DNA from: a virus | Direction: 5' to 3' (one strand) | DNA length: 40,360 bases | IMG/VR virus record: IMGVR_UViG_3300009183_000014 | Span: 1-40,360 of that record | Part shown: positions 22,351-40,360 of the stretch, piece after piece | Position numbering within the stretch: position 1 is the first letter of the stretch | Layout of the letters: every line of letters starts with the position of its first letter | Program-made: the position numbers and the translations under genes | The notes under the pieces: generated by a model | Told to the model about the DNA's origin: nothing | What the model saw: the letters and a program-made list of their open reading frames with translations, nothing else | The model's database searches: none

Positions 22351-22830
22351 ATGAGTGAAATGATCGTTAGAGTAGTCGTAGCCGGAGAGCCGCACAGTCA
22401 GCCGAGACCGAGGTTTGTGAGAGGCCGTGTAATCTCGAATATCAGCCCTGCGGTATCACGATGGCAGCGGGAGGTAGAAACGGCGTGTAGGGCGGCATTG
22501 TGTGCGATTGCGGGCAGGATAACGCAGGGCATGGCGCTGCGGGTGGATGTGACGTTCTTCTTCCCAACCAAGAAGTCTGACCGCTGGGGCAAGCCGCACA
22601 CGATGAAGCCGGATCGCGACAACTGCGATAAGCTCATCTTGGATGAGGCCACCAAGGCAGGTTTGTTTGGAGGGGATGACTGCCGCGTGTCCGCTGGCAT
22701 GATCCGAAAGTACTGGGTGAGCCCGCAGGGCCAAGGCGCGGTCATTGAGATCTACGAGGACACGTCCACCACGGACATCAATGGAGTCGAGCAGCGTGAG
22801 CTACCGTTTGAGAAGCCGGTTTGGCTTTAA
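22351..22830 (+). CDS. rusA: RusA-family Holliday junction resolvase
   Basis: Encodes 159 residues. The start V-V-V-A-G-E-P-H-S-Q-P-R-P-R matches RusA proteins, and the core motif K-P-D-R-D-N-C-D-K-L-I-L-D-E-A (86-100) carries the catalytic aspartates (D88, D90), with G-G-D-D-C-R-V (107-113) supplying another acidic site. RusA cuts four-way junctions made during recombination and replication, preparing DNA for packaging. No clear Shine-Dalgarno precedes the ATG, and the gene follows the candidate origin. One further GAGGACACG copy lies inside it at 22756. After it the coding strand reverses. Confidence 0.92.
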   Translation: MSEMIVRVVVAGEPHSQPRPRFVRGRVISNISPAVSRWQREVETACRAALCAIAGRITQGMALRVDVTFFFPTKKSDRWGKPHTMKPDRDNCDKLILDEATKAGLFGGDDCRVSAGMIRKYWVSPQGQGAVIEIYEDTSTTDINGVEQRELPFEKPVWL

Positions 22831-22892
22831 AACCACAAAGCCCCCGGCGCTCCGTTCATTGTGTGCATCATGGGGTTGGTGTTGGTTAAAGG

Positions 22893-23084
22893 CTACACTC
22901 GCTTGAAGTTAAGCCAAATATCGCAGTTGTTACAGAGGCAGACGCTGTGCTTGTTTTCTAGCTTGATAACAATCCACAGCCCAGTATCCACAAGTTCGGT
23001 GATCTTGTAGGTGCATCCGGTGGCTTTGTTCTTCCACTTGCTGCCGATAGGGTGCTCTTCATCGTAGGACTTTGAGGTGCTCAT
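22893..23084 (-). CDS. Small protein with a Cys pair, unknown function
   Basis: Minus-strand gene of 63 residues from the Met at 23084; a longer frame to 23153 would run into repetitive non-coding DNA. It reads M-S-T-S-K-S-Y-D-E-E-H-P-I-G-S-K-W at the start, has strands around I-T-E-L-V-D-T-G-L-W-I-V-I-K-L, and ends with C-L-C-N-N-C-D-I-W-L. The Cys-x-Cys-x-x-Cys group could bind metal. It lies beyond the terminator at 23531-23552, so it probably has its own promoter in the 23085-23520 gap. It is convergent with rusA, 62 bases away. Confidence 0.5.
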   Translation of the reverse strand: MSTSKSYDEEHPIGSKWKNKATGCTYKITELVDTGLWIVIKLENKHSVCLCNNCDIWLNFKRV

Positions 23085-23136
23085 TGGTTGTTTTTGGCTT
23101 ACTTGGTTGCGTTTTTGTTTGTTACTGCTTGGTTTT

Positions 23137-23202
23137 GGGTCCCCTTTTTCCAAGTAAATTCACTTTTGAGAAATGGTCTAGCCAATTTTGGTTTTAGGAA
23201 TT
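23137..23202. repeat. Imperfect 66-bp direct repeat, copy A
   Basis: Aligns with 23261-23327. Shared blocks in order are GGGTCCCCTTTTTC, AGTAAATT, ACTTTTGA, AAATGGT and ATTTTGGTTTT, with short substitutions between them. The copies are 124 bp apart in a gap with no convincing gene. Confidence 0.8.
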
Positions 23203-23260
23203 GGTTCAGGCTTGCCAAGGCTTCAGCGTTTTGTTCGTCTAGGCGCAAACTCAAGAATCT

Positions 23261-23327
23261 GGGTCCCCTTTTTCGGAGTAAATTGACTTTTGACAAATGG
23301 TTTCAGCGATTTTGGTTTTGGGGAATT
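23261..23327. repeat. Imperfect 66-bp direct repeat, copy B
   Basis: Second copy of the unit at 23137-23202, with the same block order and a one-base longer last segment. Differences cluster in short patches (CA/GG, C/G, G/C), which suggests an old duplication under partial constraint or two related protein or RNA sites. Confidence 0.8.
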
Positions 23328-23520
23328 AGCCTTCGGGAATGGGGCGTTTTTGGGGCGGTCTCTAGGGCGGTCTAGCCCGTTTTGTGGACATCACGCCTGC
23401 TTGGAAGTGGCGTTTGCTGGAATAGAAAGGCACCTTAAGGGTGGCTGTATATCGTGGGTAGATAGGCCATAGCGGATAAAGCATTGAGAGGCTTTTAAAG
23501 CGATTCTGGAAGCATTAGGG

Positions 23521-23552
23521 CAAAAAGAAAGGCGCCTCCTTTCGGAGGCGCC
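23521..23552 (-). terminator. Intrinsic terminator of the minus-strand operon
   Basis: GGCGCCTCC (23531-23539) and GGAGGCGCC (23544-23552) form a perfect nine-pair stem with loop TTTC. Read on the minus strand, the stem is followed by TTTCTTTTTG. It lies 30 bases past the stop of the last gene in the 25268-to-23582 series. Confidence 0.85.
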
Positions 23553-23581
23553 CTTGTTCGGCGAGTGCGTTTTATTTTGGT

Positions 23582-23725
23582 TTATTGGTCTAAATGATCA
23601 GATCTAATCAGGCGAAGCCTGTTTTTCTTCGCCCATTGTCGTGCTTCTTTAGCGGATTTGAACGAGTGGCAAGCGAGAGCCTGAATGATCCAGCTTTCAC
23701 CTTTCCGGTACAGCTTGGCGTTCAT
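23582..23725 (-). CDS. Small basic protein, unknown function
   Basis: 47 residues from the ATG at 23725, whose first base overlaps the stop of the upstream micro-gene (TAATG). A GAAGGG lies before it. The peptide has S-W-I-I-Q-A-L-A-C-H-S-F-K-S-A-K-E-A-R-Q-W-A-K-K: a short strand followed by a basic helix, as seen in small phage proteins. It is the last gene before the operon terminator. Function unknown. Confidence 0.55.
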   Translation of the reverse strand: MNAKLYRKGESWIIQALACHSFKSAKEARQWAKKNRLRLIRSDHLDQ

Positions 23726-23838
23726 TAGCGTTTTCCCTTCAGGTTGCGAAGCTCGGCGCGAAGTGTGCGCCAAAAGACGCAAGCGGTCGCAAAGATGGGC
23801 CCAAAGATGATGAGGAAAAAGATGATTAGGGTTTTCAT
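23725..23838 (-). CDS. 37-residue single-span membrane protein
   Basis: ATG at 23838 and TAA at 23727-23725, translationally coupled to the next gene. A strongly hydrophobic N-terminal half (TLIIFFLIIFGPIFATACV) is followed by a basic C-terminal half rich in Arg and Lys. This is the layout of a small inner-membrane protein with the positive tail in the cytoplasm. Such proteins in early phage operons can block superinfection or alter host membrane functions, but no specific family was recognised. Confidence 0.6.
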   Translation of the reverse strand: MKTLIIFFLIIFGPIFATACVFWRTLRAELRNLKGKR

Positions 23839-23840
23839 TT

Positions 23841-24068
23841 TTAGTTTTTGGATTGAAGACAGTAGGTTCTGCCGATATCATTAAATCCCTCTGCCGCAAT
23901 CTCTAGGCCGGTGTCGGGTAGATCGGAGATATGGTATTTCCTCCAGAGCGTAAGATGAATCGTAGGGGTGCTGTCCTCAGCGGAAAACTCACAAAGAACG
24001 GCGTTTTGGATAATTTGCGAATTAGGATCGAATGTTAGGAGCGATTCGAGGATGGATTGTAGTTTCAT
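23841..24068 (-). CDS. Small protein, unknown function
   Basis: 75 residues from the Met at 24068; an upstream in-frame Met at 24125 would add 19 residues of low-complexity sequence. The sequence is mixed alpha/beta (Q-S-I-L-E-S-L-L-T-F, then L-T-L-W-R-K-Y-H-I-S-D-L-P-D-T-G-L-E-I-A-A-E-G). No cysteine cluster or membrane span was seen. It is followed two bases later by the 37-residue membrane protein. Function unknown. Confidence 0.55.
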   Translation of the reverse strand: MKLQSILESLLTFDPNSQIIQNAVLCEFSAEDSTPTIHLTLWRKYHISDLPDTGLEIAAEGFNDIGRTYCLQSKN

Positions 24069-24188
24069 TTTATGTTTTTTGGTTGGGGGTGATTGGATTA
24101 GTGTAGTGTTTGTTATTTTTTTCATTTTTCTTTTTTTGTAAGTGTCAAAAAATGCTTTCCAGTTCATTTCATCTATAATTTGTTGAGT
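24069..24188. other. AT-rich spacer in the minus-strand operon
   Basis: 120 bp very rich in T on the plus strand (A on the minus strand), with no gene or clear hairpin. It may be the leader of the next minus-strand gene. Confidence 0.3.
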
Positions 24189-24638
24189 TTAGACGCTTTC
24201 CGTTTCCGACAGCGTCACTTCGATGTCATCGATCCAGTGCTCTGCTATTTCATGCCAATCTATGGCATTCTCTGCACCCGAGAGTAAGTCGGCCTGCAGA
24301 CCATGGCCTAAAGTATCTTCTAGTTCGCGATAGCAGTCTTTAAGCTGGCTAGCTAATTCTTCAACTGCCATCATTTTGTTATCTGCGCTAATTTTTTCAA
24401 CCGGACACTCATTCCACCACAACCCGACTAGCCAAGTCTCACGATTCTTCCACCCGTTGTATCTTGTGTCTTCTAAGCGTCTTGCGTTATCTTTCGCCGC
24501 TTGTTCACTCTCGGCAATATTCACAAGTCTCTGAAGCTCACTGAGTAAGATTGGTCGAATGCTTTCGGGGAGGTTGCAAGCTAGTGCAGTGTAAGATGCT
24601 TGGATTGCTTTGTTTATGTCAATTAATGGTATATACAT
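24189..24638 (-). CDS. Conserved phage protein with N-G-W-K-N-R-E-T-W motif
   Basis: 149 residues on the minus strand. Residues about 60-75 read Y-N-G-W-K-N-R-E-T-W-L-V-G-L-W, a motif I recognise from a widespread small phage protein family (DUF7249, from memory) of unknown function. The rest is helical with many acidic residues near the end (H-W-I-D-D-I-E-V-T-L-S-E-T-E). It may bind nucleic acid or protein, but no activity is known. It is the largest gene of the minus-strand block. Confidence 0.7.
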   Translation of the reverse strand: MYIPLIDINKAIQASYTALACNLPESIRPILLSELQRLVNIAESEQAAKDNARRLEDTRYNGWKNRETWLVGLWWNECPVEKISADNKMMAVEELASQLKDCYRELEDTLGHGLQADLLSGAENAIDWHEIAEHWIDDIEVTLSETESV

Positions 24639-24687
24639 GATGTTTGTTTTTGTGTTTGGAATATTATGTTTCTATTTTAGGGTTTAA

Positions 24688-24966
24688 TCACTTACTAACA
24701 AAGGCCTTAAGGTGTTGCATGGTCAAAGTTCCAGACATGATTCCAAACTGGTCGGAGTAAATGCGGCGTAGCCATTTGCGAGCTTCTGGACATGGCAAGC
24801 CACGCCCTTGATTCACAATTTCATTAAAGCTCGGGGCGGTTGTGATGGAATTCCCTTGTGAACGGTTAAAGGCAGTGAGGTTCTTTTGTGTGATGGTGAA
24901 GCTCACTACTGCGGGTGAGCCAGTGAGTTGTGCTTCGAGATTTGATTTAAGTAGTGTGATTTTCAT
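24688..24966 (-). CDS. Small protein, unknown function
   Basis: 92 residues from the Met at 24966; a longer frame to 25050 would overlap the upstream gene by 31 bases and has a low-complexity N-terminus. The sequence begins M-K-I-T-L-L-K-S-N-L-E-A-Q-L-T-G-S-P and includes G-R-G-L-P-C-P-E-A-R-K-W-L-R-R-I-Y-S-D-Q-F-G-I-M. Predicted mixed fold. No motif of known function was seen. Confidence 0.55.
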   Translation of the reverse strand: MKITLLKSNLEAQLTGSPAVVSFTITQKNLTAFNRSQGNSITTAPSFNEIVNQGRGLPCPEARKWLRRIYSDQFGIMSGTLTMQHLKAFVSK

Positions 24967-25019
24967 GTAGACTGTGTTTATGCTTATTTGTTTTTTGTAG
25001 TTTGCTGATTTTGTTTCGC

Positions 25020-25268
25020 TTAGGCTGAGCGAAAAAGTTTTTTGTACCAAGGCAAAGCGTTGAAAGCGCGGTCTGATTCTTGGTTGCGATTGATGCGTAA
25101 GGCGTTTGCTTCCTGACGGTTGACTCTTGCAATCGCTTCGGTAGCGGATTTGATAAGCATCGCTTTCATTGGATGTCCTTCAGACCAGCTAAGTGCTTTG
25201 TCCAAAATGTCTTGGTTATAGGCGCGCTCTTCGGCGAATGTCATATTGGAGAAGTTTTTTGTTTCCAT
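25020..25268 (-). CDS. Small helical protein heading the minus-strand operon
   Basis: 82 residues, mostly helix with charged residues (A-E-E-R-A-Y-N-Q-D-I-L-D-K-A, then N-R-N-Q-E-S-D-R-A-F) and ending W-Y-K-K-L-F-R-S-A. It is the first gene of the divergently transcribed minus-strand block, 146 bp from the late operon start. A promoter-like sequence ends about 10 bases before its ATG, so the transcript would be nearly leaderless. Function unknown. Confidence 0.6.
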   Translation of the reverse strand: METKNFSNMTFAEERAYNQDILDKALSWSEGHPMKAMLIKSATEAIARVNRQEANALRINRNQESDRAFNALPWYKKLFRSA

Positions 25269-25277
25269 GCGTTCTTA

Positions 25278-25305
25278 ATAGTAGGCAGAACTGCGCAGAA
25301 GTTAA
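25278..25305 (-). promoter_or_regulatory. Possible sigma70-like promoter for the minus-strand operon
   Basis: On the minus strand TTAACT (25305-25300), a 16-base spacer and TACTAT (25283-25278) resemble -35 and -10 boxes. The expected start of transcription lies only a few bases before the ATG at 25268. Confidence 0.35.
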
Positions 25306-25414
25306 GTAAAATCTTACGCTTTTTTCGCGTACAGGGTGGAGCGGGTTGGATACGTGGGATTTACGCATGAAAGTTTTTTGGTGAAGATCGCCTGAAATAG
25401 GAGAAGATAGTCGG

Positions 25415-25813
25415 ATGTTATCTGAGGCACTAAAGCAGAACATCTTTCAACCCGGTGAACGGCCTATCGGCAGAGCCAAGGGGACGCCCAATAAGATCAC
25501 GCTTAGCGTACGCGAAGCAGTCGAACGCGCCTTTGAAAAGCTTGGGGGAGCATCGTATCTCGAACACGTTGGGCGCACGGATCCACGAACCTTTTGTGCT
25601 CTCCTTTCAAAGCTTCTACCCACTAAGTTGGCCAACGCCGACGGCTCGCCGTTGCTAGCCGCCCTAACGGAGTTGACTGATGCGCAGCTCGAGGCTCGTA
25701 CTGCTAGGGCGCTGGCTGACGCGCAGCGGTCGGGGCTGATGGCGCCATCCGGTCCCATCATCGAAATGGAGGCGCAAAGTTCGACCGTTGATAATCAACC
25801 ACTTAACCCATAA
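25415..25813 (+). CDS. Probable small terminase subunit
   Basis: 132 residues. Starts after AGGAGA at good spacing. The N-terminal G-R-A-K-G-T-P-N-K-I-T-L-S-V-R-E-A-V-E-R-A-F (about residues 19-40) matches small proteins that precede large terminase genes in many phages (DUF5681-like, from memory), and a helical P-R-T-F-C-A-L-L-S-K-L-L-P segment follows. Position as the first late gene, upstream of the large terminase, supports a DNA-recognition role in packaging. It lacks an obvious classic HTH, so the assignment is moderate. Confidence 0.6.
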   Translation: MLSEALKQNIFQPGERPIGRAKGTPNKITLSVREAVERAFEKLGGASYLEHVGRTDPRTFCALLSKLLPTKLANADGSPLLAALTELTDAQLEARTARALADAQRSGLMAPSGPIIEMEAQSSTVDNQPLNP

Positions 25814-35619: not shown

Positions 35620-36756
35620 ATGGCCAATCAATTCCTGCTTAAATACAGCGCCACATCTGGCGTTGTCCCTACGTCCGCCGAGTTGCCCTTGCGGCAAATC
35701 GCGCTTAACACTGCTGATGGTAAGTTGTTCATCAAAAAGAATGATGGAACAATCCTTACCTTTGAGAGTGCTGGCGCGTTTGCTCGTGCGGTACACTCCC
35801 ACGTTATCTCTGACGTTACTGGTCTCCAAGACGCTCTTGATACGCTAACAAGCGCAGCCTCTGCGGCTCAGGCCGGAGCAGATGCTTCGCTTAAAAGCGC
35901 CTCAAACCTGAGTGATCTTGCCAATGTGTCTTCGGCTCGCAGCAACCTGTCTGTTGACAGCTCCGCTGAAGTTGACGGCAAAATCAGCACCTCCAAAAGC
36001 GCCTCTGACGCTTACACGGATGCCGCAATCGCTGCCCTGATCAATGGGAGTCCTGCAACGCTCGATACGCTGAAAGAAATTGCTGACGCTCTCGCCAATG
36101 GTGAGGACGTTGCTACCGCTTTAGCTTCCAGCATCGCTGGAGTTTCTTCCCGCGTTACCACGCTGGAAAACCAGAACCTCGACAGCCGCATCACGACTGC
36201 TCAGTCCGCTGCTGACGCAGCCCAGAGCACCGCTGATAGTGCTGTTACTGCCGCTGCTGCTGCTCAGGGCACTGCCGATCAGGCCGTACTTGACGCTGCT
36301 GCTGCTCAGTCTGCTGCCAATAACGCTCAGTCCACTGCGGACTCTGCTGTGTCTGCCGCTGCAACTGCACAGTCTGGTGCTGATGCGTCCGTCAAGAAGT
36401 CCGCTAACCTTAGCGACCTCGCTGATGCCGCAACATCCCGGACGAACCTTGGTGTAGATTCTTCTGCTGAAGTTGACTCCAAAGTCAGCTCCGCTGTTAG
36501 TTCTGCTCAGAGCACGCTTCAGGGCGAAATCGACGGTGTAGACGCTCGCGTTTCCACGCTTGAAGGACAGAATCTTGATTCTCGTCTTTCCAGCGCAGAA
36601 AGCTCGATTGCTGGCTTGGGCACGATGTCTGTACAGAATGCAGACAACGTAAACATCACGGGTGGCAGCATTGGCGCAGGTTCGGTTCCTACCGATTCGG
36701 GTGTGATTCTCACTGAGAACAGCACTTTGGACGGAGGCACGTTCTCGGGTTTTTAA
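35620..36756 (+). CDS. Tail fibre-like protein with internal repeats (zero-frame product)
   Basis: 378 residues. N-terminal domain (L-K-Y-S-A-T-S-G-V-V-P-T) then long Ala-rich coiled coil (about 190-250). A 41-residue unit occurs twice, at 83-123 and 250-290 (A-Q-x-G-A-D-A-S, then N-L-S-D-L-A, then V-D-S-S-A-E-V-D). L-E-x-Q-N-L-D-S-R also appears twice. It ends D-G-G-T-F-S-G-F at a TAA that follows a slippery sequence (GGGTTTT) and precedes a hairpin, so part of the product may continue 98 residues in the -1 frame. AT-rich start without Shine-Dalgarno. Confidence 0.8.
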   Translation: MANQFLLKYSATSGVVPTSAELPLRQIALNTADGKLFIKKNDGTILTFESAGAFARAVHSHVISDVTGLQDALDTLTSAASAAQAGADASLKSASNLSDLANVSSARSNLSVDSSAEVDGKISTSKSASDAYTDAAIAALINGSPATLDTLKEIADALANGEDVATALASSIAGVSSRVTTLENQNLDSRITTAQSAADAAQSTADSAVTAAAAAQGTADQAVLDAAAAQSAANNAQSTADSAVSAAATAQSGADASVKKSANLSDLADAATSRTNLGVDSSAEVDSKVSSAVSSAQSTLQGEIDGVDARVSTLEGQNLDSRLSSAESSIAGLGTMSVQNADNVNITGGSIGAGSVPTDSGVILTENSTLDGGTFSGF

Positions 36757-36776
36757 CCGGGGATACGAACCCCGTT
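36747..36776 (+). promoter_or_regulatory. Candidate -1 ribosomal frameshift site
   Basis: Heptamer G-GGT-TTT (36747-36753) fits the X-XXY-YYZ slippery rule in the zero frame and is followed at once by TAA. A stem CGGGG (36758-36762) with CCCCG (36770-36774), loop ATACGAA, starts four bases after the heptamer. The -1 frame is open from here to 37049. Confidence 0.6.
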
Positions 36777-37049
36777 AAATTCGTAAATCGCGACGATAAC
36801 CGGTTTGTCAATTTAGAAAACTGGGCTCCGAACGATGTGAGCGTCCACGCCAGTCGCCTGCCTAACAGCAGCGACGCGGTGATTCTCACGGCGGATTGCA
36901 CGGTGGATATGGATGTTTGGGTACAACCCGCGTCCATAGACATCGGGTCGTATTCGCTGACCTTAACTTCCATTGCAGGTGCTAATCTCACCTGCCCCGT
37001 GACTGGAACGGGAACCATCACGCTTAACGGCGTGCTGTTCAATCAGTAA
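36753..37049 (+). CDS. -1 frame extension of the tail fibre (98 residues)
   Basis: Open frame directly after the slippery site, reading L-T-G-D-T-N-P-V-K-F-V-N-R-D-D-N-R-F-V-N-L-E-N-W-A-P-N and ending in a beta-rich tip (I-T-L-N-G-V-L-F-N-Q). Protein-like sequence begins well upstream of the first possible start codon (GTG at 36837), so it is not a stand-alone gene. Joining by -1 frameshifting gives a 476-residue fibre. A simple mutation or assembly error that broke one gene is the alternative. A strong terminator follows the stop. Confidence 0.6.
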   Translation, partial: LTGDTNPVKFVNRDDNRFVNLENWAPNDVSVHASRLPNSSDAVILTADCTVDMDVWVQPASIDIGSYSLTLTSIAGANLTCPVTGTGTITLNGVLFNQ

Positions 37050-37057
37050 AACAACCT

Positions 37058-37101
37058 GGCGCTGGAGCCAAAGAAAACTCCAGCGCCCCACCCTTTTTTT
37101 T
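37058..37101 (+). terminator. Intrinsic terminator after the fibre extension
   Basis: GGCGCTGGAG (37058-37067) pairs perfectly with CTCCAGCGCC (37078-37087); five bases after the stem comes TTTTTTTT. It lies just past the -1 frame stop rather than the zero-frame stop, which supports 37049 as the functional end of the fibre gene. Confidence 0.75.
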
Positions 37102-37104
37102 CAA

Positions 37105-37740
37105 ATGAATCCTTCTGCTTCACTCACTGCTTCTTCTGTTATTTTCAACACGGGCTCCGAAAATTTTGGAGTCATCACCGCAGCAAATGTCACTTTCAAC
37201 GACGCGGCAAATAGTGGATCTGTGATCGGCGATGCCGTATTTAATGGCAGCGCAATCAATCGCGTCGCCGGTTTGGTTTCAGGCAACGCTATATTTGCAG
37301 CCACCGCAACAAACCTCGGCACGGTGCAGGGCACTGTCACTATTGACGATTCCGCGTATGCTGCATGGCTTACTGCTAATGCAGGCGTCACCCAGTACAC
37401 TGGCGCGGGCCCGCACAACGGCCAGTGGGCATATAACTCGACTGAGTACGCTTCTCAGGCTGACGCGCAGGCGGCATACGACGCGGCAAACGGAGGTGGC
37501 GGCGGCGGTGACACGCTTTGGACAGGTCAAGCCGGTGATGGATCTGGAACTCAATGCGATGTCTATACGGCTGAAAGCATTCTTGCCGTAGGAAGTCGCG
37601 TGACTGCATTTATTTACGCAGGAACGCTGTATACGTATGGAGTAAATTATTTTTCAGGTGGTGGGTTTATCAGCAACAGCGACAACAACATTTACACATG
37701 GGGCAGCAACGGGGTGATTAGTGGGGTTCAGAACCGTTAA
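37105..37740 (+). CDS. Fibre tip-like virion protein
   Basis: 211 residues. The first 90 residues form short repeats typical of a beta-helix (V-I-F-N-T-G-S-E-N-F-G-V-I, then V-T-F-N-D-A-A-N-S-G, then A-V-F-N-G-S-A-I-N). A Gly-rich hinge (six Gly near residue 131) then separates a C-terminal domain with aromatic residues (F-I-Y-A-G-T-L-Y-T-Y-G-V-N-Y-F). Stands between two terminators, so may be transcribed separately. Likely host recognition component; inferred. Confidence 0.65.
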   Translation: MNPSASLTASSVIFNTGSENFGVITAANVTFNDAANSGSVIGDAVFNGSAINRVAGLVSGNAIFAATATNLGTVQGTVTIDDSAYAAWLTANAGVTQYTGAGPHNGQWAYNSTEYASQADAQAAYDAANGGGGGGDTLWTGQAGDGSGTQCDVYTAESILAVGSRVTAFIYAGTLYTYGVNYFSGGGFISNSDNNIYTWGSNGVISGVQNR

Positions 37741-37761
37741 TTTAGACAGCACAACAACCCA

Positions 37762-37778
37762 GCCGTCTACCCGACGGC
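37762..37778 (+). terminator. Weak hairpin after the fibre tip gene
   Basis: GCCGTC pairs with GACGGC, loop TACCC. No T run follows closely, so this may only be an RNA-stabilising hairpin ahead of the stronger terminator at 37823. Confidence 0.35.
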
Positions 37779-37822
37779 GGAAGTTGTCACACTTTGAATT
37801 TATCTAAACAATAAACAATTTA

Positions 37823-37860
37823 AACCTCGCGGAGGTCCAATCCCTGTGCGAGGTTTTTTT
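37823..37860 (+). terminator. Intrinsic terminator before the small fibre gene
   Basis: AACCTCGC (37823-37830) pairs with GCGAGGTT (37848-37855) and is followed directly by a run of T to 37860. The next gene starts six bases later, so read-through or a nearby promoter must supply its mRNA. Confidence 0.8.
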
Positions 37861-37865
37861 GATTT

Positions 37866-38246
37866 ATGGCTACAATACTACTAAACAGTAAAGTGAACGA
37901 GGGCCAAGCCCCTAACCCATCTGATGTCAACGTGAGAGAACTATCAATTGATCCTTCTACGGGTTCGCTCTGGACCAAACTAAAAACCGGCATCATTCGA
38001 AAGGTGCTGGCAATGGCAGCGCCTCACGCTGACACTCACGCAACAGGCCAAGCTGACGCAATTACCCCGGCATCTATTGGGGCAGCCATTGCAGACCATC
38101 AGCACACTCCTCTTGATCTAATCGGGCTTGATTTTGCTGCCTCTACACACTCGCATCCAATTGGTCAAGTTACCGGCCTTTCGGCCCAGCTTGATGCATT
38201 GGCTCAAAGAATTTCGGCTCTTGAACAACAAGTTCATCCGCAATAA
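37866..38246 (+). CDS. Short fibre-like protein
   Basis: 126 residues. N-terminal domain (R-E-L-S-I-D-P-S-T-G-S-L-W-T-K-L) resembles fibre attachment domains. The middle has H-A-D-T-H-A-T-G-Q-A-D-A-I-T-P-A-S-I-G-A and D-H-Q-H-T-P, His-rich turns as in trimeric fibres that bind metal at their axis. The end is a short coiled coil (L-D-A-L-A-Q-R-I-S-A-L-E-Q-Q). The stop overlaps the gp10-like start (TAATG). Likely a tail-associated short fibre. Confidence 0.65.
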   Translation: MATILLNSKVNEGQAPNPSDVNVRELSIDPSTGSLWTKLKTGIIRKVLAMAAPHADTHATGQADAITPASIGAAIADHQHTPLDLIGLDFAASTHSHPIGQVTGLSAQLDALAQRISALEQQVHPQ

Positions 38247-39650: not shown

Positions 39651-40360
39651 ATGGATGGCCCAAACAGACTCCTGCGCTCTGAGCTTGCCAAGTTCCTGCC
39701 GTCGCAGCGAGCGATCCGAGCTTTTGAGCAGCTTTTTGATGTTGTTCCGTCTCAGGTCAACCAAAACACTACCTTGGTTGAAGAAGCCTCTATAAACGCA
39801 CAGAATGCCGATTCTAGGGCACAGCAAGCGGTGTCCGCTATAGCCAGACTAGCTGATGCAGTGGAATTGCTGGCTTTGGCGCCTCCAGATTCAAGTGTGG
39901 CTCAAAGTTTTGATATTGCTCCGCCAACAGTTCCGGTCGCTACTCAGCTTGATGTGACGCCTCCGGTTATCAACGAGGTTCGGCGCAAGCGGTACGGAGC
40001 ATTCCACAGCACGGTCACTCAGACGGCGGCAGTCATTAACACGGCGTATGGAATGACGCTGAACGCGACCGACATTTCGTTTGGTGTGTACACCGGAACA
40101 CCTACAAGCCGCATCTACATCGATACGGAAGGCTACTACAACTTTCAGTTCTCGGCACAGCTTGAAAAAAATACTGGTGGGGTTGGAGCTGTTTACATCT
40201 GGTGCCGTGTGAACGGAGTTGACATCCCTTACTCTGCTACTAAGATTCGTATCCAAGGCAACAACGCAGAGACGGTTGCCGCGTGGAACTTTGTGCTGCC
40301 TATCAACGCCGGAGATTACTTTGAGTTGATGTGGAGCACGGATGACACGCATTGCCAGAT
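39651..40360 (+). CDS. Fibre/needle-like protein with coiled coil and jelly-roll domain, N-terminal part
   Basis: N-terminal 236 codons of a 261-residue protein completed at 1-195 (bases 40242-40360 duplicate 1-119). Residues about 35-75 form a coiled coil (E-E-A-S-I-N-A-Q-N-A-D-S-R-A-Q-Q-A-V). Then a Pro-rich linker, and from about 110 a beta domain (Y-G-A-F-H-S-T-V-T-Q-T-A-A, then G-Y-Y-N-F-Q-F-S-A-Q-L) like C1q/TNF jelly rolls. P22 places its needle gp26 here, directly after gp10; the C-terminal knob in some needles has the same kind of fold. A needle or tip role is therefore inferred. Confidence 0.78.
   Translation, partial: MDGPNRLLRSELAKFLPSQRAIRAFEQLFDVVPSQVNQNTTLVEEASINAQNADSRAQQAVSAIARLADAVELLALAPPDSSVAQSFDIAPPTVPVATQLDVTPPVINEVRRKRYGAFHSTVTQTAAVINTAYGMTLNATDISFGVYTGTPTSRIYIDTEGYYNFQFSAQLEKNTGGVGAVYIWCRVNGVDIPYSATKIRIQGNNAETVAAWNFVLPINAGDYFELMWSTDDTHCQ
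40242..40360. repeat. Terminal direct repeat, right copy
   Basis: Identical to bases 1-119; see that entry. Removing this copy gives a circle of 40,241 bases. Confidence 0.95.

Follow-up and report, generated by a model that had tools for sequence, protein, structure and literature searches.

A conserved candidate −1 frameshift signal at the shaft–module joint of a phage tail fibre gene

The joint between the shaft and the terminal module of a phage tail fibre gene is on balance best explained, with considerable reserve, as a conserved −1 frameshift signal, the frames of the module being exchanged in the phage studied here such that the default product would be short and the slipped product long. 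The window, i.e. the whole stretch of DNA that was analysed, is a complete virus record of the IMG/VR type (40,360 bases) and encodes P22-type coat and stabilisation proteins. The proposed signal would comprise an SD-like GGNGG, the heptamer G_GGU_UUU, a short spacer and a hairpin, placed between the shaft and an exchangeable terminal module. For most relatives, in which the module lies in the zero frame, slipping ribosomes would meet UAA at once and release a tip-less fibre in a dnaX-type manner. In the window, a divergent module lies in the −1 frame behind a linker that is net 13 nt shorter and is accompanied by a smaller hairpin; normal decoding would give the tip-less fibre of 378 residues and a slip the fibre of 476 residues with its tip.

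The fibre ORF ends with TCG GGT TTT TAA at 36745–36756, and the features around this end are collected in Table 1. An in-frame slippery heptamer, a stem-loop four bases behind it, an open protein-like −1 frame ahead of any start codon and a strong terminator after the −1 stop had been named in a first-pass annotation made from the sequence alone, and all of them are borne out. The SD-like element, 9–10 nt 5′ of the heptamer, had been missed there. Because any Gly-Gly codon pair gives GGNGG, conservation of this motif alone is uninformative and does not count as independent evidence.

Table 1. Features at the 3′ end of the fibre gene (positions in the window).
Feature	Position	Strand	Basis
Tail fibre ORF, 378 aa, short form, zero frame, ending in ...GGTFSGF-stop	35620..36756	+	ORF; PHROG tail/tail fibre matches
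SD-like GGAGG, 9–10 nt 5′ of heptamer	36733..36737	+	Sequence; PMC4066793 spacing rule
Slippery heptamer G_GGT_TTT, in-frame X_XXY_YYZ	36747..36753	+	Sequence, heptamer scan
Zero-frame stop TAA, directly 3′ of heptamer	36754..36756	+	Sequence
5-bp GC hairpin CGGGG-AUACGAA-CCCCG, 4-nt spacer after heptamer	36758..36774	+	Folding
−1 frame extension, 98 aa, and stop TAA (37047–37049)	36753..37049	+	Homologous to relatives' in-frame terminal module
Intrinsic terminator, stem 37058–37087, T8 37094–37101	37058..37101	+	Folding

SD and hairpin rules for bacterial −1 frameshift sites were taken from Sharma 2014 (PMC4066793), the hairpin being expected to start 4–10 nt downstream, to be GC-closed and to reach at least 7.6 kcal/mol. 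With a predicted −7.4 kcal/mol alone and −8.4 kcal/mol with its flanks, the window hairpin falls just under or over this value depending on the flanking bases. It is the most stable 17-nt stretch among the next 197 nt and lies near chance in two tests against shuffled sequences (z −0.7 and −1.2). A scan of the 37 main ORFs of the window (11,471 codons) returned 43 in-frame X_XXY_YYZ heptamers, and only the one at the fibre end is accompanied by both an SD-like element at 6–17 nt and a hairpin at least as stable as −7 kcal/mol. Against the frameshift reading, G_GGU_UUU ranks outside the top class of E. coli motifs; R_RR.U_UU.Y motifs are singled out as shift-prone exceptions in that species (PMC4066793). 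The scan also revealed an in-frame CCCAAAC at 39659, close to the start of ORF 39639, with a predicted structure of −26 kcal/mol on its 3′ side and without an SD-like element. Elsewhere in the window, a stretch of about 2.6 kb (22830–25415), flanked by tightly packed plus-strand genes, has few plus-strand ORFs of at least 80 aa.

The −1 frame is open from 36717 to 37049, with a TGA at 36714–36716 upstream. In tblastn comparisons its product is 45–51% identical to the in-frame modules of relatives (E to 2e-21), all indels inside the module are multiples of 3, and Ks is saturated with Ka about 0.5. From these comparisons we conclude that the −1 frame is real coding sequence. Separate translation of the module was rejected, the first ATG, GTG or TTG of the frame being the GTG at 36837, which lies 28 codons inside the module; zero-frame readthrough and +1 shifting were likewise rejected, with stops within 10 codons in both cases. 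Behind the −1 stop, the terminator exhibits a 10-bp stem of −19.9 kcal/mol (z −4.7); a consensus scan places this stem on the minus strand. Pfam and PHROG searches with the window module gave no family at cut-off and an AlphaFold model (pLDDT 69) compared by Foldseek gave no usable structural match, so that neither an Ig-like nor another recognised surface domain was found by these three routes. Near relatives of this particular module were found neither in IMG/VR nor in GTDB genomes, nor by tblastn or blastn among GenBank phages, and the matches in L082 and L126 turned out to be chance matches in other genes.

The fibre shaft is common to about 40 IMG/VR contigs, with roughly 80–90% amino-acid identity over residues 1–371, and L290 is the only genome match for the fibre. 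Beyond residue 371 the terminal modules of the relatives differ. The majority, about 35 IMG/VR contigs, carry module A, which is homologous to the −1 product of the window. The modules of L013 and L023 are concanavalin A/LamG-like (Pfam, above cut-off), those of L002 and L015 weakly Ig-like or BACON-like (Pfam, below cut-off), and those of L007, L014 and L034 are without a Pfam match or outside the Pfam scan. Every complete terminal module, in about 40 relatives, is read in a single uninterrupted frame.

At the joint itself the heptamer-bearing relatives are nearly uniform. The codons TCG GGT TTT are identical in 23/23 distinct relatives, and the heptamer is kept in all module-A relatives as well as in L013 and L023. 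Where it occurs, GGGTTTT is followed by AATGGC and then by the hairpin GGGGGUGGUG-GAGGCAA-CACCACUCCC, of about −24 kcal/mol. With 10 bp and about −20 to −25 kcal/mol, the hairpins of the relatives are clearly stronger than 7.6 kcal/mol. A −1 slip in these relatives would lead to TAA immediately, and the resulting ...GGTFSGF would equal the zero-frame product of the window. Synonymous variation in the codons that span heptamer and hairpin amounts to 0.085 of expectation among the 23 distinct fibres, compared to 1.02 in the shaft, 0.94 in the 40 codons before and 1.08 in the module after it. At widths 8 and 13, no stretch of the gene has lower synonymous variation than the joint, an amino-acid-matched test counted 2 changes instead of the expected 13 (P about 2e-5), and the constraint holds after thinning to 15 sequences. 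Since the joint varies less than the linked shaft and module, the sequence itself is under constraint or repeatedly homogenised.

The hairpin follows the heptamer. Compared with synonymous recoding, it is stronger than expected in heptamer-bearing joints (z about −3.5 for module A, −2.7 for L023, −1.9 for L013/L024), whereas in the heptamer-less joints of L002, L007, L014, L015 and L034 it is no stronger than after recoding (z −1.2 to +2.0). Its arms covary: 99% of the cells are paired, the covariation score was reached by 0/500 shuffles, and at stem pairs 35–57 and 41–51 of alignment A4 both sides have changed between module types with pairing kept. The covariation rests on few events, as a common origin of the linker is probable for the module types with the heptamer.

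The first-pass annotation had postulated a −1 frameshift that lengthens the fibre, and had looked to the relatives for a conserved heptamer with split frames in its favour, or for one uninterrupted frame without the slippery site against it. The relatives provide strong comparative evidence for the signal, although slippage would shorten their fibres. They conserve the heptamer, but a module in the −1 frame occurs in 0 of about 40, so that the arrangement of the window is a single case. The opposing argument holds only by half, because the uninterrupted frame of the relatives comes together with the heptamer and a stronger hairpin.

Selection on the joint might also act on the DNA. In L088 (2894–2959), a strongly diverged, unrelated shaft end is linked through the same joint DNA to a module that is 90% identical; judged from this contig, the shaft–module joint is an exchange point. 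Since the joint is a recombination point as well, DNA-level selection is possible. According to such an explanation, which we regard as rather unlikely, the constrained joint is a preferred crossover point or an inverted repeat, and the heptamer and −1 stop are incidental. The exchange exactly at the joint in L088 and the occurrence of the same joint ahead of modules of different folds (two lectin-like ones and module A) would fit. However, the constraint begins at the heptamer codon TCG, ends with the hairpin and spares the shared upstream GGNGGNACN codons; moreover, the hairpin is confined to heptamer-bearing joints, and crossover use alone leaves stem pairing with changed bases unexplained. 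In the preferred reading, we infer that the element works by frameshifting.

For the window, a recent natural frame break is the main rival. Recombination or slippage in the G-rich linker may have shifted the module of this phage out of frame; the phage would then make tip-less fibres by default, the long form being lost or merely a product of residual slippage at the inherited heptamer. We consider this possible, if less than probable. The single frame of the relatives, taken alone, argues for a frame-breaking change in the Gly linker, and the only aligned gap that is not a multiple of 3, the 13 nt missing from the window, sits exactly there. The nearest relative, L018, is 92–96% identical on both flanks of a cassette (36754–37866) that is itself divergent, as after a module exchange, and the near-chance stability of the window hairpin agrees with such a break as well. 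On the other hand, the −1 frame runs across 98 codons without a stop or internal frameshift and has diverged under purifying selection, so that any break must be recent, and the out-of-frame landing would have to coincide with a conserved slippery signal and a hairpin at the right spacing. With a frameshift signal as the preferred explanation, the weaker hairpin of the window would have to be sufficient for useful slippage.

Exchange may reach beyond the fibre gene. The next gene (37105–37740, 211 aa) encodes a Gly-rich linker followed by a C-terminal domain that is 57% identical over 63 residues to the terminal module of the L014 fibre, a resemblance which suggests that terminal modules move between neighbouring tail genes.

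A one-base assembly or sequencing error, with the module in frame in the true genome, is a minor and very improbable alternative. The record is a metagenomic contig, the break adjoins a run of five T, and a second copy of this module was not found in IMG/VR. Five T are, however, a short run, and the linker differs from that of the relatives by 13 nt and substitutions, not by one base. Over more than 10 kb of well-aligned genes the comparison with the nearest relative contains no uncompensated frame-breaking indel. A search for the joint with six T gave one chance match only; among the matches listed for the five-T pattern, none encodes this fibre. The probabilities of the rivals overlap, since a recent frame break would not preclude a DNA role for the joint.

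Similar arrangements are known from other systems. In E. coli dnaX, a case named in both PMC4066793 and PMC5009743, an SD-like element, the heptamer A_AAA_AAG, a hairpin and a nearby −1 stop lead to a shortened product. The joint of the relatives shares the SD-like element, an in-frame heptamer, a hairpin a few nt 3′ and a quick −1 stop, whereas the heptamer is G_GGU_UUU, the gene is that of a phage fibre, and in the window the exchanged frames would let slippage lengthen the product. Lambda and other long-tailed phages employ a conserved −1 frameshift in G/GT, the tape-measure chaperone. A conserved −1 frameshift in a tail gene is likewise predicted here; in contrast, the window gene is a fibre, is not sited before a tape-measure gene and belongs to a phage with P22-type head genes. 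According to an idea reported for phage Ig-like domains, mobile domains end up in frame or out of frame after recombination, and frameshifting then sometimes permits their expression; frameshifted C-terminal extensions occur in virion proteins of T3/T7 (capsid), A2 and A118/A500/PSA (PMC5009743). Similar to these, an exchangeable terminal domain would be added to a virion protein by frameshifting, and the −1 domain of the window is homologous to modules fused in frame. The extensions concern capsid or major tail proteins and are often Ig-like, whereas the present case is a fibre whose module lacks a Pfam match, and in the relatives the signal persists even with the domain in frame. A partial search of the literature, covering titles and abstracts, returned no account of −1 frameshifting in receptor-binding fibres.

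Tentatively, the joint could be a slippery adaptor under selection that gives rise to tipped together with tip-less fibres in whichever frame a captured module lands, slippage giving the short form in the relatives and the long form in the window. The mixed fibres would presumably matter for adsorption. If this is true, translation would tune host recognition in these phages, which recombine freely, and a single gene would provide fibres both with and without a receptor tip. The recoding site would at the same time act as an adaptor by which out-of-frame module swaps stay partly expressed. Fibres would then join the few virion genes of phages in which recoding is conserved, with a testable inversion of frames.
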